From positions 2,633,501 through 2,697,500 of the forward strand of contig CP018227.1 of NCBI GenBank assembly GCA_016865035.1: a DNA stretch of 64,000 nt, read 5' to 3'. Shown in pieces: positions 8,894-18,815 of this stretch (positions within the stretch are counted from its first letter, which is position 1; every line of letters starts with the position of its first letter). This DNA is from Kordiimonadales bacterium IMCC3096 (GTDB taxonomy: Bacteria > Pseudomonadota > Alphaproteobacteria > Minwuiales > Minwuiaceae). The translations under genes and the position numbers were made by a program. The notes beneath the pieces are model-generated. The model was not told the origin of the DNA. It searched no databases and was given only the letters and a program-made list of their open reading frames with translations.

Positions 8894-9484
8894 TCAGGGC
8901 TGAAGCGCATCCTCGACCACGCGACACAGCCGTGCCGTCGCGACTTCCGGCGGACCGGAGTTGTCCAGGTGCAGCACGTCATCGCCGCTGACCTTCAGGT
9001 CTCGGGCGCGCTGCAGGCGGGCCCTGATCTCCTCGGCAGTTTCCCGTCCACGGGCGGCAAGACGGCGCGCGAGTTCGGCCTCGGCGACGGTCACGGCAAC
9101 CACGATCACGCGGGCGAACGCGGCACGGATCGCAGGCAGCGCCTGACGGGAACCATTGGCGATGGCCAGCCCGCCGCTGGCCAGATGGTCGGCAACATCA
9201 GCAGGGAGACCGTATTTCAGGCCGTTGGCGTCCCAGGTCACGGAGAAGGCTCCGGCCTGCTGCGCGGCCTCGAAGTCGGCCACGGTCATGCTCGCGTGCG
9301 CCTCGGCATTCGGGTCGGCCTTTCGAGTCACGGTGCGCTGCACGAAGCGGACACGGGCATCGTCGGCGAAGTGGAGCCGGAGTCCGTCGATCAGGGTGTC
9401 CTTGCCCGCGCCACTCGGCCCGACGATGACCAGCAGCGCGCCGCCTGTATCGCCGTCCCTGTCGCCGCCACCCTGTTCAGACAA
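8894..9484 (-). CDS. phnN: Ribose 1,5-bisphosphate phosphokinase PhnN
   Basis: Phosphorylates ribose 1,5-bisphosphate to PRPP, the salvage step at the end of the C-P lyase pathway. The guanylate-kinase-like P-loop GPSGAGKD is at residues 22-29, and RFVQRTVTRK carries the substrate-binding arginines. I propose TTG at 9484 as the start (196 aa, family about 185-200): it has AGGGGGA about six bases upstream and overlaps the phnM stop by 8 bp. An ATG at 9538 would add 18 residues that read through phnM. Last gene of the phnG operon. Confidence 0.9.
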   Translation of the reverse strand: MSEQGGGDRDGDTGGALLVIVGPSGAGKDTLIDGLRLHFADDARVRFVQRTVTRKADPNAEAHASMTVADFEAAQQAGAFSVTWDANGLKYGLPADVADHLASGGLAIANGSRQALPAIRAAFARVIVVAVTVAEAELARRLAARGRETAEEIRARLQRARDLKVSGDDVLHLDNSGPPEVATARLCRVVEDALQP

Positions 9485-10619
9485 CCCGTTCCCCCTGACG
9501 CCAGACCGTGCGCACCACAGGTACGCCATCCTGGACACGGACGCGCGCCAGATCGGCGCGCTTGCCTACCGCGATCACGCCCCGGTCGTCCAGTCCCACC
9601 GAACGTGCGGGCTGGTGTGTCGCCATGCCTACGGCCTGGGGCAGGGAGATGCCGTCTACGGTCTCCGCAAGCTGGAATGTCGCCTGGATCAGGCTGAAGG
9701 GGATGTAGTCCGACGACAGGATGTCGAGCAGTCCCAGTTCCGCGAGGTGCTGCGCCGCGATATTGCCGGAATGGGAACCGCCGCGGACAACGTTGGGTGC
9801 GCCCATCAGGACGGCCATGCCGCGCTCATGGGACGATCTGGCGGCGGCCTCGGTCGTCGGGAATTCGGCGACGCGCACGCCATTGTCCTCCGCCTCGTCG
9901 ACGTGTTCGCGGGTGGCGTCATCATGGCTGGCCAGCACGATGCCACGCTGCCGCGCGATTTCGGCGATGGCGCCGCGATTGTGGTCGGAGTTCTGCCGCG
10001 ACTGGTCCACACGCATGTCGCAGAACGCCGCGAACTCGGCATCGGTCATCTTCAGCTTGCCCTGGTAATAGATCTTGTAGGCATCCAGATTGGCGAACTG
10101 CCGCTGTCCCGGCGCGTGATCCATCAGGGAGGCGAGACGCACCCCCTGCTTGCCGCCCAGCCTTTCGAAGGCGGCCAGGCAATCGGGTGATGAGACCTCG
10201 CACCGCAGATGCAGGAAATGGTCGGCGCGCAGTCGCCCGGTCGCCATGCCGCTCTGTATGGCCTCGGCCAGCACCACCATGTCGTCGGTGACCAGATCAT
10301 GATCTCCGTCCGTATTGCCGACCCGCAGCGCGTCGAAGACCGTGGTGATGGCAGAGCTTGCGATCTGCGCATCATGCGCCTGCACGGCGGCAAAGGGGTT
10401 CCAGCGGACCTTGGGCCGGGGGGCGTAATGACCCTCCAGATGGTCGGTATGCAGTTCCACCAGACCGGGCAGCAGGTAGTCCCCACCCATGTCGTCTCCT
10501 GCAGCTTCCGACGCGCCGCCCACATCGGCAATCAGACCGTCACGCAGCAGCACGGAGCCGGTCACGACCTCGTCCTCCAGCACCAGGCGGGCATTCTTCA
10601 ACAGTGTCTCTTGGCTCAT
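9477..10619 (-). CDS. phnM: Alpha-D-ribose 1-methylphosphonate 5-triphosphate diphosphatase PhnM
   Basis: Amidohydrolase-fold enzyme, 380 aa, removing pyrophosphate from the ribose-phosphonate triphosphate made by PhnGHI(L), which gives the substrate of PhnJ. The metal site begins with LHTDHLEGH near residue 57, and further ligands are likely in SSPD-, DHAPGQR- and SHDDAT-containing strands. IMASHDDAT-like HDD and SSDYIPFSL near the C terminus are PhnM-specific. It starts one base after the DUF1045 stop and overlaps phnN, so the three are tightly coupled. Confidence 0.95.
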   Translation of the reverse strand: MSQETLLKNARLVLEDEVVTGSVLLRDGLIADVGGASEAAGDDMGGDYLLPGLVELHTDHLEGHYAPRPKVRWNPFAAVQAHDAQIASSAITTVFDALRVGNTDGDHDLVTDDMVVLAEAIQSGMATGRLRADHFLHLRCEVSSPDCLAAFERLGGKQGVRLASLMDHAPGQRQFANLDAYKIYYQGKLKMTDAEFAAFCDMRVDQSRQNSDHNRGAIAEIARQRGIVLASHDDATREHVDEAEDNGVRVAEFPTTEAAARSSHERGMAVLMGAPNVVRGGSHSGNIAAQHLAELGLLDILSSDYIPFSLIQATFQLAETVDGISLPQAVGMATHQPARSVGLDDRGVIAVGKRADLARVRVQDGVPVVRTVWRQGERVV

Positions 10620-10620
10620 T

Positions 10621-11328
10621 TCAGGCGGTCATCCGTTCATTCAGCTGCTGCAGCGGGGCATGTTCGTGGACGCGGAACGGCGCACCCGGCTCCGCCTCCC
10701 GCATCAGGGCCAGGCTGCCGAGGGTCATCGGCAGATCGATCACGGGTGCAAACCATTCCTGCAACGCATGCTCCACGGTCGCACGGTCGGAGTCGGGCAC
10801 GGGTCCGGTCAGGGTCATGTGGAAACGGAAGGTATCCAGCACGTGCGGATAGCCCCAGCGATGCAGGTTGCGCAATTGCGCGATGGTCAGGGAACCGGGC
10901 TGGCGGCGGGCCAGTTCAGCTTCGCTCAATGGCGCGCGAAACCGCTCGAATGCCAACACTGCCTTGCAGGCCAGGGCGTCGATCTCCAGCGAGGGCCGGG
11001 CCGGAACCAGGGCGAAGAATCGACCGATGCGGGCGATCTTCATGTGCGGCACGATGAAGGCGGTTTCATCAAGGCAGAAGTCCAGAAAGGCCTGCACCAG
11101 TTCTGATTCGCCGCGGCCCCGCGCCAGCCTGAAAGGTGCCTTCATGGTCGCATGAAAGCCGTATCGCCGGGCGGCTGCGGTGTGGAAGGCGACGTCGGCC
11201 GAACTCAGGTTGCCGACCGCAGGATTGCGACTGACGGTACCGGTGAAGACATCCCGGCCAAGCCACTGGGTCGCGATCCGGCCCATTGGATCCTCCGGCG
11301 GTGGCACGAAGTAGATGGCATGTCGCAT
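10621..11328 (-). CDS. DUF1045 phosphonate-operon protein, 2H-phosphoesterase-like
   Basis: 235 aa member of the family regularly seen in alphaproteobacterial phn operons. Two HxT motifs, HATM at 59-62 and HMTL at 170-173, are spaced as in the 2H phosphoesterase superfamily, whose members open or form cyclic phosphate and 2'-5' linkages. The gene lies between phnL and phnM, 72 bp after phnL and 1 bp before phnM. The ring-opening enzyme PhnP, a metallo-beta-lactamase-fold protein, is missing from this locus. I infer that this protein may hydrolyse 5-phosphoribosyl 1,2-cyclic phosphate instead. The family assignment is firm; the function is inference. Confidence 0.8.
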   Translation of the reverse strand: MRHAIYFVPPPEDPMGRIATQWLGRDVFTGTVSRNPAVGNLSSADVAFHTAAARRYGFHATMKAPFRLARGRGESELVQAFLDFCLDETAFIVPHMKIARIGRFFALVPARPSLEIDALACKAVLAFERFRAPLSEAELARRQPGSLTIAQLRNLHRWGYPHVLDTFRFHMTLTGPVPDSDRATVEHALQEWFAPVIDLPMTLGSLALMREAEPGAPFRVHEHAPLQQLNERMTA

Positions 11329-11400: not shown

Positions 11401-12108
11401 TCATGCGGCCACCGCAGCGGTTGCGAACCGGCTGACATCAACGATTCGGTCGGCCACGGCTTCACGGACATCCGCGTCGTGGAAGATACCCAGAAGTGCG
11501 GTCCCGTTCGCCTTCTTCTCCGCGATCATGTCAATCACCACCTGGCGATTGCGGGCGTCGAGCGATGCCGTCGGCTCGTCCAGCAGCAGGACAGGCAGAT
11601 CGGGCAGGAAACCGCGCGCGATGTTCACGCGCTGCTGCTCCCCGCCGGAGAAGGTCGCGGGTGGCAGGGACCAGAGCCGTTCGGGCAGATTGAGGCGCGC
11701 GAACAGTGCCGCCGCGCGCTCCCGCGCCGCCTCGGCGGTGACACCGGCACGCACCAGCGGTTCCGCTGCCACGTCGATGGCCGCAACCCGCGGGATGGCG
11801 CGCAGGAACTGGCTGACATAGCCCAGCGTCTGTCGCCGGACCTGCATCACCAGCCGCGCGTCCGCGCTGGCCATGTCGACCTGGTCACCGGCATGGGTGA
11901 TCAGGATCTGCCCGGCACCGACGCCATAGTTGCCATAGACCATCTTCAGGATCGAACTCTTGCCCGCCCCGGACTGTCCGCCCAGGACAACACATTCGCC
12001 GCCATCGACATGGAAGCTGACCCCGGCAACGACCGGCAGGGTCACGCCATCGCGCAGATGCAGGGTGAAGGACTTGTCGACACCGGTCAGAAGAAGGCGC
12101 TGTGTCAT
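11401..12108 (-). CDS. phnL: PhnL, ABC-type ATPase of the C-P lyase system
   Basis: 235 aa ABC ATPase: Walker A GQSGAGKSS, signature FSGGEQQRVNIARG and Walker B LLLDEPTASLD are intact. PhnL is needed with PhnGHI for attaching phosphonate to C1 of the ATP ribose, displacing adenine. It works on the core complex and is not a transporter ATPase. It has no permease of its own here; the separate phnCDE set supplies transport. It starts 3 bp after phnK. The order phnK-phnL matches known C-P lyase operons. Confidence 0.94.
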   Translation of the reverse strand: MTQRLLLTGVDKSFTLHLRDGVTLPVVAGVSFHVDGGECVVLGGQSGAGKSSILKMVYGNYGVGAGQILITHAGDQVDMASADARLVMQVRRQTLGYVSQFLRAIPRVAAIDVAAEPLVRAGVTAEAARERAAALFARLNLPERLWSLPPATFSGGEQQRVNIARGFLPDLPVLLLDEPTASLDARNRQVVIDMIAEKKANGTALLGIFHDADVREAVADRIVDVSRFATAAVAA

Positions 12109-12111
12109 GGC

Positions 12112-12900
12112 TCAGACCTGCAGGATGGAGGAAACGAGAAGCTGCGTGTAGGGCGCCTGGGGATCGTCCAGCACCCGGTCGGTCAGGCCGGTCTCGATCA
12201 CCTGTCCGTCCTTCATGACCATCATCCGCTGGGACAGCAGCCGCGCCACGGCGAGGTCGTGGGTGACGACGATGGCAGACAGGCCCAGGTCATCGACCAG
12301 ACCCCGCAACAGGTCCAGCAGCCGCGCCTGAACCGAGACATCCAGCCCTCCGGTCGGCTCATCCATGAAGACCAGCCGTGGTCCGGTGACGAGATTGCGT
12401 GCGATCTGCAGCCGCTGCCGCATGCCGCCCGAGAAGGTCCCGGGGCGGTCGTCGATACGGTCATGGCTGATCTCCACCCGTCCCAGCCAGTCGTCGGCGG
12501 TTTCGCGGATGCGGCCATAGTGGCGCTGCCCCACCGCCATCAGCCGCTCCCCCACATTCGCCCCGGCGGAGACGTTCATGCGCAGCCCGTCGGCGGGATT
12601 CTGGTGCACGAAACCCCAGTCGGTGCGCATCAGGAACCGCCGCTCCGCCTCTGACAGGGCATTGAGGTCCTGCAGCCGACCGTCCCGCATGCGGTAGCTG
12701 ATTGTGCCTGCGGTGCAGTGCTGCCGGCCGGAAACGCAGTTCAGCAGGGTGGTCTTGCCGGAACCGGATTCGCCGACGACCGCCAGCACTTCCCCCGGAT
12801 AGAGATCGAAGCTGACATCGCGGCAGCCGATACGGTCACCGTACATGTGTGTCAGGTTGCTGACACGCATCAGCGGCGGATCATTGTCCTGCATGCTCAT
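12112..12900 (-). CDS. phnK: PhnK, ABC-type subunit of the C-P lyase complex
   Basis: 262 aa ABC ATPase with Walker A GESGSGKTT, signature FSGGMRQRLQIARN and Walker B FMDEPTGGLD. In the known enzyme PhnK docks onto PhnJ of the PhnGHIJ core. The N-terminal region GCRDVSFDLYPGEVLAVVGE and the dipeptide-transporter-like signature are typical. I start at 12900 because its ATG overlaps the phnJ stop (ATGA); the longer in-frame start at 12945 falls inside phnJ. Confidence 0.95.
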   Translation of the reverse strand: MSMQDNDPPLMRVSNLTHMYGDRIGCRDVSFDLYPGEVLAVVGESGSGKTTLLNCVSGRQHCTAGTISYRMRDGRLQDLNALSEAERRFLMRTDWGFVHQNPADGLRMNVSAGANVGERLMAVGQRHYGRIRETADDWLGRVEISHDRIDDRPGTFSGGMRQRLQIARNLVTGPRLVFMDEPTGGLDVSVQARLLDLLRGLVDDLGLSAIVVTHDLAVARLLSQRMMVMKDGQVIETGLTDRVLDDPQAPYTQLLVSSILQV

Positions 12901-13781
12901 GCCGCCTGCTCCCCCGCATGGCCCTCTGCCTGACGCCTGTTGCAATGGTCGGTGTCGGAGCAGACGAACATCCGCCCGCCCCGGTCATCGGTGATGACCT
13001 CGTCCAGGAACACGTCTTCAGCGCCACACAGCGCGCAGGGCCGATCGAATGCCTGCACCTCGAACGGGTGATCCTCGAAATCCAGACTGACGACCTCCGT
13101 CCATGGCGGAATGGCATAGATGCGCATCTCCCGCCCTGCCCCGAACAGCTGCAGCGCCGGATTGCGGTGCATCTTCGGATTGTCGAACTTCGGTGTGGGG
13201 GAGGGGTCGGTGACATAGCGCCCCTCCACCTTCACCGGGTAGGCATAGGTGGTGGCGATGTGGCCGTGGCGGGCAATGTCCTCATACAGCTTCACATGCA
13301 TGACGCCGTATTCCTCCAGCGCGTGCATGGTCCGGGTCTCGGTCTCGCGCGGTTCCAGGAACCGGAGCGGCTCCGGAATCGGCACCTGAAACACGAGAAT
13401 CTGCCCTGCGGTCAGCGGTGTCTCCGGGATGCGGTGGCGGGTCTGGATGATGCTGGCCTCTGCCGTGGCCGTGGTGGTCTCGACACCGGTCGTGCGCTCG
13501 AAGAACTTGCGGATCGAAATGGCGTTGGTGGTGTCGTCGGCGCCCTGGTCGATGACCTTCAGCCGGTCGTCGGGTCCGATGATCGCGGCGGTGACCTGCA
13601 CGCCGCCGGTGCCCCAGCCATAGGGCATCGGCATTTCCCGGCTGGCGAAAGGCACCTGGTAGCCCGGCACGGCTATCCCCTTCAGGAGCGCGCGGCGGAT
13701 CATGCGCTTCGTCTGCTCGTCCAGATAGGCGAAATTGTAGGTCGCGATGACCTGTTCGTTTCCGGCGTCGAGGGCACTCAT
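12897..13781 (-). CDS. phnJ: Carbon-phosphorus lyase core subunit PhnJ
   Basis: 294 aa radical-SAM enzyme cleaving the C-P bond of ribose 1-phosphonate 5-phosphate to give alkane and 5-phosphoribosyl 1,2-cyclic phosphate. C249, C252 and C274 match the Fe-S ligands of the E. coli protein (241, 244, 266) and C280 the thiyl-radical cysteine (272), all with a constant offset of 8. G40 matches the glycyl-radical position G32. EPRETETRTMHALEEYGVM and KVIDQGADDTTNA are nearly invariant. The start overlaps the phnI stop (ATGA). All catalytic residues are intact, so the locus should be functional. Confidence 0.97.
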   Translation of the reverse strand: MSALDAGNEQVIATYNFAYLDEQTKRMIRRALLKGIAVPGYQVPFASREMPMPYGWGTGGVQVTAAIIGPDDRLKVIDQGADDTTNAISIRKFFERTTGVETTTATAEASIIQTRHRIPETPLTAGQILVFQVPIPEPLRFLEPRETETRTMHALEEYGVMHVKLYEDIARHGHIATTYAYPVKVEGRYVTDPSPTPKFDNPKMHRNPALQLFGAGREMRIYAIPPWTEVVSLDFEDHPFEVQAFDRPCALCGAEDVFLDEVITDDRGGRMFVCSDTDHCNRRQAEGHAGEQAA

Positions 13782-14875
13782 TCCGCCGCCTCCTGATGTG
13801 TTTCAGTGCGCGCTTCCACCTCTGCCCGCATCCGCCGGACCAGGTTCAGTTCCGACTGGAAATCGACGTAGTGGGGCAGTTTCAGATGCTCCACGAAACC
13901 GGTCGCCTGGACGTTGTCTGAATGGGCGATGACGAACTCCTCGTCCTGCGCCGGGGCGGTCAGATCCTCCCCCAGTTCCGTGGCGCGCAGGGCCCGGTCG
14001 ACCAGGGCCATGGCCATGGACTTGCGCTCCGCCTGACCGAAGACCAGACCATAGCCGCGGGTGAACTGGGGCGGGGCCTTGGCCGAGCCCTGGAACTGGT
14101 TGACCATCTGGCACTCGGTGACCTGGATGCGGCCCAGCGGTGCGGCGAAATCCAGTTCCGGCACCGCGATCTCCAGCTCCACCTCCCCGATGCGGATTTC
14201 TCCGGCGAAGGGGTGGCTGCGGGCATAGCCGCGCTGGGTGGAGTAGCCCATCGACAGCAGGAAGCCCTCGTCGCCGCGCGCCAGCGCCTGCAGCCGGGCG
14301 TCCCGGTCCATCGGATAGCTCATCGGGTTGCGGGCAATGTCGTCGGGCACCGGCTTGTCCGCGGCGTCGGGTGCGGGTTCCAGCAGCCCCTCCTGCCCCA
14401 GGAAGTCGGAGACGCGCATCATCGGGGCACCGTCCGGGTCGCGCACCTCAGGTGTCTCAGGAGCGGCGCCACCCGCCAGCGCCGGGTCGAGCAGGCGGTG
14501 GGTATAGTCGAACGTGGGTCCCAGAAGCTGTCCCCCCGGCAGATCCTTGAAGCAGGCCGAGATGCGCCGTTCCACCTGCATCCGGCCGGTATCCACGGGC
14601 TGGGTATAGCCAAAGCGGGGCAGGGTGGTGCGATAGGCGCGGGCCAGGAAGATCGCCTCGATCAGGTCGCCCCGCGCCTGCTTGATGGCCAGCGCGGCCA
14701 GTTCACGGTCATACAGCGCGCCCTCGCTCATCACCCGGTCCACGGCCAGCGAAAGCTGCTCCATGATCTGGTCCAGACCCAGGTCGGCCACGTCCCGATT
14801 GCCGCGACGGCGGTCGGCCAGCAGCTTGTGGGCATTGTCGATGGCGGTCTCGCCACCCTTCACGGCAACATACAT
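13778..14875 (-). CDS. phnI: C-P lyase core subunit PhnI
   Basis: 365 aa, the expected length. PhnI alone acts as a purine nucleosidase and in the PhnGHI(L) assembly transfers phosphonate to ribose C1. The N terminus MYVAVKGGETAIDNAHKLLA, and the downstream VDRVMSEGALYDRELAALA and ARAYRTTLPRFGYT segments, are characteristic. The C-terminal part carries QVTECQMVNQFQGSAK. It starts 3 bp after phnH and overlaps phnJ by 4 bp, a spacing typical of subunits made together. Confidence 0.95.
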   Translation of the reverse strand: MYVAVKGGETAIDNAHKLLADRRRGNRDVADLGLDQIMEQLSLAVDRVMSEGALYDRELAALAIKQARGDLIEAIFLARAYRTTLPRFGYTQPVDTGRMQVERRISACFKDLPGGQLLGPTFDYTHRLLDPALAGGAAPETPEVRDPDGAPMMRVSDFLGQEGLLEPAPDAADKPVPDDIARNPMSYPMDRDARLQALARGDEGFLLSMGYSTQRGYARSHPFAGEIRIGEVELEIAVPELDFAAPLGRIQVTECQMVNQFQGSAKAPPQFTRGYGLVFGQAERKSMAMALVDRALRATELGEDLTAPAQDEEFVIAHSDNVQATGFVEHLKLPHYVDFQSELNLVRRMRAEVEARTETHQEAAE

Positions 14876-14878
14876 GGC

Positions 14879-15487
14879 TCAGTCCTCTCCCTTCCCGATC
14901 CGCGTCGAGCGCGGCAGGCAGGCGACCGCTTCGGGCCCGGCGAGGATCAGGTCCACGCCGCGGGGGAAGAGGGCGCGATTCCCGCTCCACTGGTCGATGA
15001 AGGCCTCCGGCATGGGGGCGAAGGTGAACCGGCGCAGGTGTTCGATTCCGGGTCCCGTGAGCGACAGTGGCGTGCCCCTGTCGAAGCCGTCCACCGCCAG
15101 TACCAAAGTGGTGGAGCGATCCGGGTAGGCATCCGTGCCCTTGGCAAAGCGATCCAGCGCAGGCATGGAAGACGGGTCGCTGACGAAGGCGAACATGGCC
15201 GCTGCACTGTCTGCCGTGACCGGCGCGCCGGTATGAAACGCCAGCCACTTCACGACCAGCGGATTGCCCGCCAGTTCAGGATCCAGCCATATCGGCGTGT
15301 CGGCATCACAGAGCGTGGTCGCGATGGAGGCCATGGTCCGACGCAGACCTTTCGGCGGCGTCGGGCAATCCGTAATGGCCTGGATCGTCCCGGGTTCCGC
15401 CATGGCCTGCATGATGGCGCGGAAGGCTGACTGGCCGGCAATCACCGGATCGGCGAGGCCGCCCGAGAGGAAATCCGTTTCGGCCAT
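14879..15487 (-). CDS. phnH: C-P lyase core subunit PhnH
   Basis: 202 aa core subunit, a dimeric PLP-transferase-like fold without cofactor that shapes the PhnGHIJ complex. FRAIMQAMAEPGTIQ near residue 22 is the family landmark, and FPRGVDLILAGPEAVACLPR lies at the C terminus. Its start codon shares a base with the phnG stop. No catalytic residue is expected. Confidence 0.94.
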   Translation of the reverse strand: MAETDFLSGGLADPVIAGQSAFRAIMQAMAEPGTIQAITDCPTPPKGLRRTMASIATTLCDADTPIWLDPELAGNPLVVKWLAFHTGAPVTADSAAAMFAFVSDPSSMPALDRFAKGTDAYPDRSTTLVLAVDGFDRGTPLSLTGPGIEHLRRFTFAPMPEAFIDQWSGNRALFPRGVDLILAGPEAVACLPRSTRIGKGED

Positions 15488-15945
15488 CAGTCCTCTCCCC
15501 GCACCAGCGTGAAGAAATCAACCTTCGTTGCAGCGGTCTCCGCCTGCCGCTGCCGGTCCCGCGCGGCAAGTGCTTCGCGCAGCGGCTCCACAAGCCGGCT
15601 GTCGATGGTCGCCGCCATCGCCGCGTCATCGGCCAACGCGTCGATGACGGCGCAGAGTCGGGCTGCCCCCTGGTCACGGCCGAGGCGATAGGCATGACCG
15701 ACCGCGCCGTCCTGCAACCGGACGCTGGCGCGGGTGACGGTCACATCACCGAAGTTGAAGGGGGCACCATCGCCGCTGATCCGGCCGCGCACGGTGGCCA
15801 GTCCGGTCTCCGGTCCGCGCACCATCTCGAAGGCCGGATCGATCCCGAGACCGCCCCAGAGTTCGCGCAACTGCTTGCCCTCCGCACGGGCCAGCACGGC
15901 CATGCGGTCGCGCCTGGGCTGAAGGTCTGGTTCGGTGGTGCTCAC
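15487..15945 (-). CDS. phnG: C-P lyase core subunit PhnG
   Basis: 152 aa from a GTG start at 15945, preceded by GGAGCA seven bases upstream; PhnG proteins are about 150 aa. An in-frame ATG at 16053 would extend the protein through the operator and promoter described below, so it is rejected. Features include RRDRMAVLARAEGKQL near the start and the conserved RGRISGDGAPFNFGDVTVTR in the middle. First gene of the C-P lyase operon; binds PhnI in the core complex. Confidence 0.93.
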   Translation of the reverse strand: MSTTEPDLQPRRDRMAVLARAEGKQLRELWGGLGIDPAFEMVRGPETGLATVRGRISGDGAPFNFGDVTVTRASVRLQDGAVGHAYRLGRDQGAARLCAVIDALADDAAMAATIDSRLVEPLREALAARDRQRQAETAATKVDFFTLVRGED

Positions 15946-15971
15946 GGGTCTGCTCCGATGCCGGTCGTCAT

Positions 15972-15995
15972 AGTTGTCTATTTGTATAGACAACT
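15972..15995. promoter_or_regulatory. PhnF-type operator
   Basis: AGTTGTCTAT and ATAGACAACT form a perfect 10-bp inverted repeat around the 4-bp spacer TTGT. It lies 26 bp before the phnG GTG and downstream of the predicted phnG -10, in roadblock position. It also sits upstream of the phnF promoter. The half-site resembles known GntR/HutC-family operators with a GTCTA core, and the divergent phnF gene encodes such a regulator. Confidence 0.8.
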
Positions 15996-16022
15996 GTTGT
16001 TTCCCTGTCATCCGGTTATAGT
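15994..16022 (+). promoter_or_regulatory. PhoB box and -10 for phnF (plus strand)
   Basis: CTGTTGT-ttcc-CTGTCAT (15994-16011) fits the PhoB consensus of two 7-bp CTGTCAT-like units 11 bp apart at 12 of 14 positions. TATAGT (16017-16022) is a likely -10. The box abuts the PhnF operator, so repressor and activator could compete. Confidence 0.6.
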
Positions 16023-16046
16023 GTCGGCGTGACAGCCATGTGACAG
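16015..16046 (-). promoter_or_regulatory. PhoB box and -10 for phnG operon (minus strand)
   Basis: On the minus strand CTGTCAC-atgg-CTGTCAC (16046-16029) is two identical consensus-like units at 11-bp pitch. TATAAC (16020-16015) follows 8 bp later as -10. Transcription would start near 16008, putting the PhnF operator at about +13 to +36. The -10 overlaps the plus-strand -10 on the same TATA core. Confidence 0.65.
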
Positions 16047-16058
16047 GGACCACGACAG

Positions 16059-16820
16059 GTGACGGAACTGACAGACAAGATGACGGATACGGCTGACGTG
16101 GGCCGCCGCAGCGGTGTGGCGCTCTGGCGCCAGATCGCGGACCGGATTCGCCAGGATCTGGCGCTGTGGTCGGCGGAGCGGGACGGCCGTCTGCCTTCCG
16201 AGGCCGAGCTTGCCACCCGTTTCAGCGTCAACCGCCATACCGTGCGGGCTGCCCTCTCCGCACTCGGTCGCGAAGGGGTGATCCGCAGCGAGCGGGGGCG
16301 CGGAACCTTCGTGGTGCGGCGTCCGCGCATCACCTATCCGATCGGCCGCCGTACGCGATTCTCCACGGCGCTGGAGGCGCAGAACAGTTCGGGCCGGCTG
16401 CTGCTGCTGCGCCACGCGCGGGTCGCGGCCGACGCGGTGGTAGCGGAGGCGCTGCGGCTCGCCGTCGGGGCCGACGTCGTGATGCTGGAGACCCGTGGCA
16501 TGGCGGAGGAGACGCCGATCAGCTTCGCCACACACTGGTTCGATGCCGCCCGCTTCGCAGACCTGCCTGTACATCTGGACCGCACCGGCTCCATAACCCG
16601 GGCCCTCGCGGCCTGCGGCGTTGCCGATTATGTACGCCGCTCCACGGTGCTGGAGGCACGACGCGCCCTGCCGGTGGAGGCGACCGAGCTCGACCTGACG
16701 GATGACGGTCTCGTCATGGTTGCGCGCGCCCTGAATGTGGATCTGCACGGCGCCCCGATCCAGCTTTCGGAAACCCGCTTCGCCGCCGACCGCGTCGAGA
16801 TCGTGATAGATCAGGCCTGA
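16059..16820 (+). CDS. phnF: GntR/HutC-family transcriptional regulator PhnF
   Basis: 253 aa from a GTG start. The winged helix-turn-helix (about residues 20-90) contains LWRQIADRIRQDL, LPSEAELATRFSVNRHTVRA and SERGRGTFVV. The C-terminal two-thirds is a UTRA ligand domain (TRGMAEETPISFATHWFDA; PIQLSETRFAADRVEIVID). PhnF homologues regulate phosphonate genes, and the divergent position next to phnG with a palindrome between them supports that. In-frame ATGs at 16080 and later are alternative starts. The effector is unknown. Confidence 0.9.
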   Translation: MTELTDKMTDTADVGRRSGVALWRQIADRIRQDLALWSAERDGRLPSEAELATRFSVNRHTVRAALSALGREGVIRSERGRGTFVVRRPRITYPIGRRTRFSTALEAQNSSGRLLLLRHARVAADAVVAEALRLAVGADVVMLETRGMAEETPISFATHWFDAARFADLPVHLDRTGSITRALAACGVADYVRRSTVLEARRALPVEATELDLTDDGLVMVARALNVDLHGAPIQLSETRFAADRVEIVIDQA

Positions 16821-16931
16821 GAGAGGCCGGTCTGTCACGAAAGTTTCGCGATGACCTGCAACTGCTGCAGGCCGGAATTGTCCTCCACCAAGCACCCCAT
16901 CGCCGGTGCGGCGATGCAATGGATGAACGCC

Positions 16932-18236
16932 ATGACTGAATCCGCCTCCGTCCGTCTGCCCGCCGGAGCGCCGGCCTGGCCGGATGTCTTCCGCGCGTTC
17001 GGGCGCATCGGTCTGCTTTCGTTCGGGGGACCCGCCGCCCAGATCGCTCTGATGCACCGGGTGCTGGTGGAGGAGAAGCGCTGGCTTTCGGAGCGGCAGT
17101 ATCTCGACGCGCTGAGCTTCTGCATGCTGCTGCCGGGGCCGGAGGCGATGCAGCTTGCGACCTATGCGGGCTGGCGGTTGCGCGGCGTTCCGGGTGGCTT
17201 GCTGGCGGGCATGCTCTTTGTCATTCCCGGTGCCTGCGTGGTCCTTGGCCTGGCCATTCTCTACGCCCATTTCGGCAAGACCCCGCTGCTGGCGACGCTG
17301 TTTCTGGGCATCAAGGCTGCGGTCCTGGTGATCGTCGTGGAAGCACTGCTGAAGGTGGCGCGACGGGCCCTGCATCGTCTGACCGGCTGGATCATCGCCG
17401 GTGCGGCCTTTGGCGGGATATTCCTGTTCGAGTTGCCGTTCCCGCTGATCATCGTCGCCGCGGCGGTCGTCGGGTTCAGCCTGCGGCCCGGTGCGGCGGA
17501 TGCGCGGGAGGCAGGGCGTGCTGCGCCCGCCCCCGTTTCTGTCAGGTCAACGGGACAGACGGTCCTGCTCTGGCTGTTCGTCTGGTGGGCGCCGCTGCTG
17601 CTGCTGGACCTGCTGGCGGCGGCCCCGGTACTCGCCACGATCGGCCATTTCTTCTCCAAGCTGGCGGTCGTGACCTTTGGTGGCGCCTATGCGGTCCTGG
17701 CCTACATGGCGCAGCAGGTCGTCACGGGATTCGGCTGGCTGAGTGCAGGGGAGATGCTGGACGGGCTTGGTCTGGCGGAAACGACGCCGGGGCCGCTGAT
17801 ACTGGTGACGGAGTTCGTCGGCTTTCTCGCCGGGTTCCGGAGCGGCGGGCTCTGGCTCGGGCTCGCCGGAGCCATGGTGACCCTATGGGCGACGTTCGCA
17901 CCATGCTTTCTCTGGATCTTCGCCGGGGCGCCCTACATCGAATGGATCTCCGGCCAGCCGCGCCTCCGGGGGGCGCTGGCCGCGATCACGGCGTCGGTGG
18001 TCGGGGTCATGCTGAACCTGTCGATCTGGTTCGCGCTGCATGTGATGTTCGCCAATGTCACACGGCAGACCGTCGGGCCGCTGACCTTGTGGCAGCCGGA
18101 GCTGGCAAGTATCGACTGGCGTGTCCCGGTGCTGTCGCTGTTGAGTGCTGTGCTGCTGCTGCGGTTGCACTGGGGAATCGGCCGTGTGCTGGCGATCTCT
18201 GCCGCGACCGGATGGGTCCTTGCAGAAATGCAGTGA
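16932..18236 (+). CDS. chrA: Chromate transporter family protein ChrA
   Basis: Membrane protein of the CHR superfamily, 434 aa from the proposed start. It has two homologous halves. Each half begins with the FGRIGLLSFGGPAAQIALMH or KLAVVTFGGAYAVLAYM signature, followed by LPGPEAMQLATYAGW or ETTPGPLILVTEFVGF. This is the long two-domain form that exports chromate in characterised cases. The start is uncertain: ATGs at 16851, 16914, 16923 and 16932 are in frame without a clear ribosome site. It follows phnF by 111 bp on the same strand, inside the phosphonate island. The substrate here is not proven to be chromate. Confidence 0.85.
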   Translation: MTESASVRLPAGAPAWPDVFRAFGRIGLLSFGGPAAQIALMHRVLVEEKRWLSERQYLDALSFCMLLPGPEAMQLATYAGWRLRGVPGGLLAGMLFVIPGACVVLGLAILYAHFGKTPLLATLFLGIKAAVLVIVVEALLKVARRALHRLTGWIIAGAAFGGIFLFELPFPLIIVAAAVVGFSLRPGAADAREAGRAAPAPVSVRSTGQTVLLWLFVWWAPLLLLDLLAAAPVLATIGHFFSKLAVVTFGGAYAVLAYMAQQVVTGFGWLSAGEMLDGLGLAETTPGPLILVTEFVGFLAGFRSGGLWLGLAGAMVTLWATFAPCFLWIFAGAPYIEWISGQPRLRGALAAITASVVGVMLNLSIWFALHVMFANVTRQTVGPLTLWQPELASIDWRVPVLSLLSAVLLLRLHWGIGRVLAISAATGWVLAEMQ

Positions 18237-18251: not shown

Positions 18252-18815
18252 TCACCCGCCCTGATGCGCGGCGGCCAGACCATCGGCCATGTCCCGATAG
18301 TCCTGCAACACAGGCGTCTCCATCCCCGGCACCTTCGCGGCGTCGTCGATGCGGCGCAGCTTGATCGCGGCGCGGTGGCCCGGCTCGGCCTCGAATGCGG
18401 TCCGCTCGGCCTCGTCCATGAGGCCACCCTGCAGTTCCAGGCTGCGCACGGAATCGGCGGACAGCAGATCGAAGTAGTCCGGTTCGACCGTGCAGAGATA
18501 GCGTTTGGCAGCCACATGCAGCCGCACCGGGTCGGCCACCGACGGTCCGAACACGAGATCGAGTGTCCGCGCGCCCGCGACTTCATGCCGGTCATCGATA
18601 CCCCTTTCAGCCAGCGCCTCGTCCGTGTCGGTCACCAGATGCCCGATGTCATGCAGCAGCGCGGCAATCACCAGGGCGTCATCGCCACCCTGCGCCTCCG
18701 CCAGCGTGGCGGACTGAAGCGCATGCTCCAGCTGGGAAACGTCGGAGAGGCCATAGCTGCCGCTGCCACGCTCCGCCAGACGGGTGAAAAGGCGCTCGAC
18801 AGCTTTCGTGGGCAT
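18252..18815 (-). CDS. HD-domain oxygenase of phosphonate operons, PhnZ/TmpB-like
   Basis: 187 aa HD-domain protein of the family found in phosphonate degradation loci. Known members (PhnZ, TmpB) are mixed-valent di-iron oxygenases cleaving C-P bonds of hydroxylated phosphonates. Candidate ligands follow PhnZ spacing: H31, H55, D56, H77, H100 and D157, with K104 for phosphonate binding. Y21 matches the PhnZ gating tyrosine, but the paired Glu position is S24 here. SQLEHALQ and LLHDIGHLV are strongly conserved. GGGAGG lies upstream of the ATG. No hydroxylase partner (PhnY or TmpA) lies in the window. It is divergent from phnC. Confidence 0.82.
   Translation of the reverse strand: MPTKAVERLFTRLAERGSGSYGLSDVSQLEHALQSATLAEAQGGDDALVIAALLHDIGHLVTDTDEALAERGIDDRHEVAGARTLDLVFGPSVADPVRLHVAAKRYLCTVEPDYFDLLSADSVRSLELQGGLMDEAERTAFEAEPGHRAAIKLRRIDDAAKVPGMETPVLQDYRDMADGLAAAHQGG

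Follow-up and report, generated by a model that had tools for sequence, protein, structure and literature searches.

The C-P lyase PhnJ of Escherichia coli releases 5-phosphoribosyl 1,2-cyclic phosphate, and PhnP, a protein of the metallo-beta-lactamase (MBL) fold, acts on this compound before the kinase PhnN takes over. Which protein, then, takes this step in a phn operon that includes phnJ and phnN and lacks phnP? Here, we address this question for an operon found in the window, i.e., the whole 64,000-nucleotide stretch of DNA analysed (G000:C1:2633501-2697500), which lies within a one-contig genome of 4.29 Mb.

The phn operon and the slot of the DUF1045 gene

The minus strand of the window carries phnGHIJKL, followed by a gene for a DUF1045 protein, phnM and phnN, with phnF divergent on the plus strand (Table 1). 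PhnN, PhnM, PhnL, PhnK, PhnH, PhnG and PhnF all score above their own NCBIfam cut-offs, and PhnJ and PhnI are assigned by Pfam, so that these profile scores bear out the preliminary description of the locus as a phn operon with PhnGHIJKL, PhnM and PhnN and without PhnP. The true start of phnK probably lies further in than the listed ORF start. At the junction, the sequence reads with one base between the DUF1045 stop codon and the ATG of phnM, and phnM and phnN overlap. In the PhnJ tree, the window PhnJ clusters with rows from Roseibium, Microvirga and Pseudolabrys, and on this basis we assign the source genome to the class Alphaproteobacteria. A search of the whole 4.29-Mb genome with the PhnP profile TIGR03307, which the preliminary description had called for, yielded 4 matches and none above the cut-off, the best scoring 61.3 bits against 272.

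Table 1. Genes and motifs of the phn locus (positions in the window)
Feature	Position	Strand	Profile match
phnN, ribose 1,5-bisphosphokinase, step after PhnP	8894..9538	-	TIGR02322, 198.3 bits (cut-off 156)
phnM	9477..10619	-	TIGR02318, 483.8 bits (cut-off 390.55)
DUF1045 (TIGR03223) 2H-type protein, 235 aa, ATG start; proposed 5-phosphoribosyl 1,2-cyclic phosphate phosphodiesterase	10621..11328	-	
Second HxT motif, H170-M171-T172	10813..10821	-	
First HxT motif, H59-A60-T61	11146..11154	-	
phnL	11401..12108	-	TIGR02324, 325.9 bits
phnK	12112..12945	-	TIGR02323, 399.3 bits (match begins at residue 24)
phnJ, C-P lyase, which releases the cyclic phosphate	12897..13781	-	PF06007, 486.1 bits
phnI	13778..14875	-	PF05861, 538.3 bits
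phnH	14879..15487	-	TIGR03292, 186 bits
phnG	15487..16053	-	TIGR03293, 156.3 bits
phnF, divergent GntR-type regulator	16059..16820	+	TIGR02325, 250.9 bits

Two further genes lie beyond phnF. A chromate efflux transporter gene (16851-18236, plus strand; TIGR00937, 220.8 bits) separates phnF from the phosphonate transport genes, and a gene for a Phn-HD HD-domain oxygenase of phosphonate degradation (18252-18815, minus strand; TIGR03276, 212.9 bits, slightly below the cut-off of 214.6) has the C-P lyase operon on one side and phnC/phnD on the other. A similar Phn-HD gene (190.4 bits) adjoins a TIGR03364 oxidoreductase gene in a Rhodocyclaceae MAG (L212).

Family, motifs and predicted fold of the DUF1045 protein

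The window protein belongs to DUF1045 by both family models, TIGR03223 (Phn_opern_protn; 252.6 bits, cut-off 248.95) and PF06299 (189.5 bits, cut-off 24.3), and its gene, between phnL and phnM, is linked to C-P lyase. TIGR03223 is the only NCBIfam model matched at E ≤ 0.001, and PhnP (TIGR03307) is not among the matches; the protein may work like PhnP, but it is no member of the PhnP family. The only Pfam match besides PF06299 is to PF13563 (2_5_RNA_ligase2), at an E value of 0.0037 and below the cut-off. Likeness to named 2H families is nevertheless apparent from its relatives, 46 of 52 of which match PF13563 (best E value 2.3e-10) and 34 of 52 PF02834 (best 1.1e-7), both at E ≤ 1.

The two HxT motifs pointed out in the preliminary description (H59/T61 and H170/T172) are present, and it is their conservation, rather than their occurrence, that carries weight: as many as 2350 of 10000 shuffles of the window protein contain at least two H-x-[TS] motifs, so that a double motif was rejected as evidence by itself. 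In a set of 106 DUF1045 proteins with a length of 195 aa or more (the truncated L187 and five L096 fragments were left out), H59 is conserved in 104, T61 in 100, H170 in 104, and threonine or serine at position 172 in 100; both motifs, which are a mark of 2H phosphoesterases, are intact in 100 of the 106.

A search of PDB sequences with the window protein alone returned a single weak match, to HPPK (E value 0.74), and a search with the DUF1045 profile returned two 2H proteins (0.2 and 1.2) together with an unrelated protein (0.54), matches that are too weak to be used alone. An AlphaFold2 model built from a 14-row alignment (pLDDT 93.4, pTM 0.89) points to a 2H fold, as far as a predicted rather than a solved structure can tell. 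Its top Foldseek matches are the Arabidopsis Appr>p cyclic phosphodiesterase (CPDase; E value 2.3e-6) and YjcG (2.4e-6), followed by E. coli LigT and others; the VIA Z values are 15.9 for YjcG, 15.3 for the CPDase and 13.8 for LigT, and further Foldseek/VIA matches include Usb1 and AKAP18. In IMG/VR viral contigs, 7 pattern matches to DUF1045 were found and 0 were confirmed.

The plant enzyme, Appr>p CPDase, has two HxT/S motifs and acts on a substrate with a ribose 1,2-cyclic phosphate: from ADP-ribose 1'',2''-cyclic phosphate, it forms the 1''-phosphate. If the PhnJ product were opened in this way, the result would be ribose 1,5-bisphosphate, which PhnN needs. The Arabidopsis protein (PDB 1fsi, 1jh6, 1jh7) and the DUF1045 model are alike in fold (rmsd 2.8 over 168 residues), whereas sequence identity is 13% and DUF1045 is about 54 residues longer. 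Unlike the CPDase, DUF1045 has conserved R131, R142, G159, Y160 and P161 between both motifs; R142 and Y160 fall in a segment that is absent or shortened in the shorter 2H enzymes.

Distribution of DUF1045, PhnP and PhnN

The preliminary description had proposed comparing phnP and DUF1045 across alphaproteobacterial phn loci, and the two proved to be mutually exclusive with the exception of a single genome. Our first sample comprised 397 Pseudomonadota, drawn evenly, of which 103 encode PhnJ above the cut-off and 90 DUF1045 above the Pfam cut-off, 76 of the latter together with PhnJ; PhnP was searched in the 103 PhnJ genomes and in the 14 that are DUF1045-positive and PhnJ-negative. The 103 phnJ genomes divide into 76 with DUF1045 only, 25 with PhnP only, none with both and 2 with neither (G040, with a sub-cut-off PhnJ match containing stops, was left out, and the DUF1045 of G317, below the cut-off, was not counted). 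In the window's class, all 71 phnJ genomes encode DUF1045 and none has PhnP above the cut-off, whereas the 32 phnJ genomes of other classes include 25 with PhnP, 5 with DUF1045, 0 with both and 2 with neither. The PhnP scores are separated by a gap, with above-cut-off matches at 296 bits or more and the others at E ≤ 1e-10 reaching at most 85.9 bits. One family, f47, is mixed, with DUF1045 in G204 and G394 and PhnP in G312.

The genomic context, examined in 140 DNA stretches, ties DUF1045 to phnM and phnN: the gene lies within 500 bp of one of these in 66 of 73 genomes, and within 12 kb of phnJ in 58 of 73 and farther away in 15 (G387, G389 and G395, with the locus absent or incomplete in the set, are omitted from these counts). 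The two genomes with neither enzyme, G320 and G323, encode phnJ and phnN, with a phn operon that ends at phnN; DUF1045 has no match there at E ≤ 0.001 and PhnP none at E ≤ 1e-10, and no third phosphodiesterase stood out among the ORFs after phnN, read by eye. These genomes argue against a strict need for either enzyme.

Five genomes encode, besides an ordinary PhnJ, a divergent extra PhnJ of 379-397 bits (G071 C1:6008866, G170 C103:107767, G285 C3:46025, G067 C1:303959 and G409 C24:37708); the other above-cut-off PhnJ proteins of the first sample score 451-505 bits.

From 587 confirmed loci, ranked against a divergent PhnJ, we took the best 80 as a second, non-random sample; these named phnJ loci come from several phyla and represent 78 genomes (L153 and L190 were left out). 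PhnP is found in 25 of these (24 above the cut-off), DUF1045 in 18, both in 1 and neither in 36. PhnN is above the cut-off in 41 genomes and split over two frames in one more (G447, counted as present), and these 42 genomes are exactly the set with PhnP or DUF1045. Thus, PhnN is above the cut-off in 17 of 17 genomes with DUF1045 only and in 0 of 36 with neither enzyme, so that DUF1045 behaves as the needed partner of PhnN where PhnP is lacking; exceptions are the first-sample genomes G320 and G323, which encode phnN in the absence of both enzymes. In those 36 genomes, which include Bacillota, Cyanobacteriota and Thermodesulfobacteriota, PhnN-profile matches score at most 70.8 bits against a cut-off of 156 and are probably guanylate kinases. 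The PhnP of G409, at 265.3 bits slightly below the cut-off, was counted as PhnP, and Kuenenia (G415) and a Limnohabitans MAG (G431, with phnJ on a 4.3-kb contig) were counted as having neither. The Kuenenia MAG carries an operon-linked PhnP-like gene (147 bits, below the cut-off) and has no PhnN above the cut-off.

The single genome with both enzymes is the MAG of Rhodobacteraceae UBA6796 (L158, G409), in which one contig bears PhnJ, PhnN and PhnP and another PhnJ, PhnN and DUF1045, and which also encodes a third PhnJ, the divergent one. Hence, leaving aside clusters with neither, PhnP and DUF1045 are mutually exclusive per phn cluster in both samples. Together with an alphaproteobacterial Hyphomicrobium sp. 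MAG (L157) that has PhnP and no DUF1045, UBA6796 cuts across taxonomy, so that the pattern is not one of taxonomy only, although both are MAGs for which mis-binning is possible.

How many independent events underlie this pattern is a different matter. In a PhnJ tree of 104 rows, the DUF1045 label needs 2 changes, and in one of 184 rows, the minimum number of DUF1045/PhnP changes is 3, of which well-supported branches force 2, with patchy support overall (the second PhnJ tree excludes row L096_4199, and the first PhnJ of L158 was given no state). The exclusion is therefore strong in counts but can be explained by few switches. Fisher tests on these counts ignore relatedness and were set aside as evidence.

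Fusions and the two-cluster genome are kinds of evidence separate from the distribution counts. In the Rhodocyclaceae MAG L212, a single 431-aa ORF encodes DUF1045, both motifs included, in its first part and PhnN in its second. Searching 399 genomes of the same order, with up to 4 candidates scored in each, we found full-length fusions in 3 among the matches listed, L212 included, the other two being 52% and 46% identical to the L212 fusion, a divergence that argues against an assembly error. The three score 232-238 bits for TIGR03223, below the cut-off of 249, and 187-195 bits for PhnN, above the cut-off; the fusion gene in L227 comes after a GntR-regulator-like ORF (read by eye). In titles and the opening lines of abstracts, nothing on a DUF1045-PhnN fusion was found.

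DUF1045 also occurs outside the C-P lyase operon. Six of the 106 aligned proteins lack intact motifs, four having lost both threonines and kept the histidines, and two having lost all four residues. These six (L016, L030-L034) and the motif-bearing L035 and L036 have a common neighbourhood: a DAO-type oxidoreductase gene lies upstream in 8 of 8 loci, and genes for a polysaccharide-deacetylase-family protein, OHCU decarboxylase and ureidoglycolate lyase are present in 7 of 8 (by family search on L033 and BLAST clusters for the rest), L016 being without these purine-catabolism neighbours because its contig ends early. Compared with the other 98 proteins, these second copies are changed at Y160 (8/8 versus 0/98), R142 (8/8 versus 2/98) and Y6 (6/8 versus 1/98). 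Given this concentration of changes, Y160 and R142 make good candidate residues for a link with the phn reaction; R131, unchanged in 8 of 8, was dropped as a specificity marker. In each of the six genomes, the degenerate copy is accompanied by an intact-motif copy next to phnM-phnN.

Of the 14 first-sample genomes with DUF1045 and without PhnJ, 11 have full-length and 3 weak partial matches. Three PhnJ-negative genomes (L013, G355; L015, G393; L017, G268) encode DUF1045, PhnM and PhnN above family cut-offs, and a fourth (L008, G095) DUF1045 and PhnM; such modules may be remnants or may be used without C-P lyase. In seven loci of one family, by inference Rhizobiaceae, DUF1045-PhnM-PhnN is unlinked from phnGHIJKL. 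We also looked for wider neighbours common to the orphan module of L015 and other modules, which have essentially nothing beyond the three genes in common.

Proposed role and its alternatives

Taken together, these data make it very probable that the window DUF1045 protein serves as phosphoribosyl cyclic phosphodiesterase in this C-P lyase pathway. PhnJ would release 5-phosphoribosyl 1,2-cyclic phosphate; DUF1045, with its predicted 2H fold and two HxT motifs, would open the ring at the 2-oxygen, like the plant 2H enzyme, to yield ribose 1,5-bisphosphate; and PhnN would phosphorylate the latter to PRPP. The substrate, the bond opened, the catalytic role of the histidines and the independence from metal are features that we infer, and R142 and Y160 would help to hold the substrate. 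PhnP and DUF1045 would thus share a reaction and the slot before PhnN, with unrelated sequences. The non-orthologous replacement of PhnP suggested in the preliminary description is accordingly supported by mutual exclusion, the tie to PhnN, the PhnN fusion and the predicted fold, with hydrolysis of the cyclic phosphate being putative. PhnPP belongs to a family different from that of DUF1045; like DUF1045, as proposed here, it acts on the PhnJ product, but its own product differs, because PhnPP leads to ribofuranose 5-phosphate (PMC8774927, excerpt) and so would not need PhnN.

Replacement of PhnP by DUF1045 is well supported and has already been proposed, so that the novelty here is in the added evidence. 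As far as excerpts of the articles go, a 2H protein in place of PhnP was proposed in print by 2013 (PMC3840354), again in PMC5649143, and, citing Hove-Jensen 2014, in PMC8235418, and a 2023 review that repeats the proposal and cites Podzelinska 2009 lists 54 operons, with PhnP in 27 and rcsF in 16 without PhnP (PMC10574752). We take this 'rcsF' 2H gene of phn operons to be DUF1045: the family and the place by phnM are the same, and the window protein is one more member. The closest functional datum comes from a Rhodobacteraceae fosmid with the 2H gene 'rcsF' and without phnP, with which E. coli delta-phnHIJKLMNOP grew on methylphosphonate (PMC3840354, excerpt), an effect at the level of the fosmid rather than of a single gene. 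According to the portion seen of PMC3463581, PhnN acts on ribose 1,5-bisphosphate, and an E. coli phnP strain draws no phosphorus from 2-aminoethylphosphonate; a table on the P-stress response lists a Phaeobacter DUF1045 protein alongside PhnI, PhnJ, PhnL and PhnM (PMC10132767, excerpt). In the partial texts on DUF1045/rcsF 2H proteins and phosphonates, we found no enzymology of DUF1045, and, in the same prior work, we saw no mention of the coupling to PhnN, of the genome with two phn clusters, of the fusions to PhnN or of the degenerate second copy.

Several observations sit uneasily with the proposed phosphodiesterase role, namely, DUF1045 in phnJ-less genomes, the copy by purine-catabolism genes and the 15 of 73 loci away from phnJ, and other explanations have to be weighed. 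It is improbable that a distant MBL-fold relative of PhnP takes the PhnP step while DUF1045 has another role in the pathway. The best PhnP-profile match in the source genome, L001, is full-length, and the phnP genes reported in all seven genomes of Marivita, a roseobacter genus (PMC8774927, excerpt), could be such relatives; because none of the phnJ genomes of the window's class in the first sample has PhnP above the cut-off, 'phnP' calls in such genomes could go back to a distant MBL relative. However, L001 scores higher for other MBL-fold models (251 and 193 bits, below their own cut-offs) and sits away from phn, after MetG- and TatD-like ORFs (read by eye), unlike the above-cut-off PhnP of the first sample, which belongs to the phn cluster in all 25 genomes that have it. 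Moreover, among the 71 genomes of the window's class that encode phnJ, 38 lack any PhnP match at E ≤ 1e-10, yet such a match occurs in 6 of the 11 phnJ-less genomes in which DUF1045 is full-length.

Because 2H enzymes are often broad, DUF1045 might instead be a clean-up enzyme, opening the ring the other way to form ribose 2,5-bisphosphate or using shunt products, e.g., dephosphorylated ribosyl 1,2-cyclic phosphate, which E. coli phnP strains excrete (PMC3463581, excerpt). Ribose 2,5-bisphosphate as the product would leave PhnN without a substrate, whereas DUF1045 is fused to PhnN and accompanies it in every PhnP-less DUF1045 genome of the second sample, and we consider a clean-up role very unlikely. 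A non-catalytic or regulatory part in the phn system, for instance as a cyclic-nucleotide binder, is brought to mind by the six second copies, all of which lack both motif threonines and two of which lack the histidines as well, given that the fold can persist; but both motifs are kept in the remaining 100 of 106 aligned copies, the six genomes retain an intact copy by phnM-phnN, and the phyletic pattern of DUF1045 is PhnP-like, so that such a role for the window protein would be most surprising.

With the phosphodiesterase role as the preferred reading, the fusions, modules and second copies can be read jointly, although the chances of this wider reading being right are about even: the DUF1045-PhnN fusions would be single-chain enzymes leading from the C-P lyase product to PRPP, DUF1045-PhnM-PhnN would be a portable downstream module, kept in some phnJ-less genomes for salvage of ribosyl-phosphonate or cyclic phosphate without C-P lyase, and a DUF1045 pseudoenzyme would have moved to purine catabolism.

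Many of the bacteria that use phosphonates in the sea and in soils belong to the window's class. In the literature, as far as partial texts go, we found no proven enzyme for the step after C-P cleavage in this class; the role of DUF1045, if settled, would fill this gap. The fusions would then offer a natural enzyme for the path from 5-phosphoribosyl 1,2-cyclic phosphate to PRPP that can be studied; they make the old proposal directly testable.
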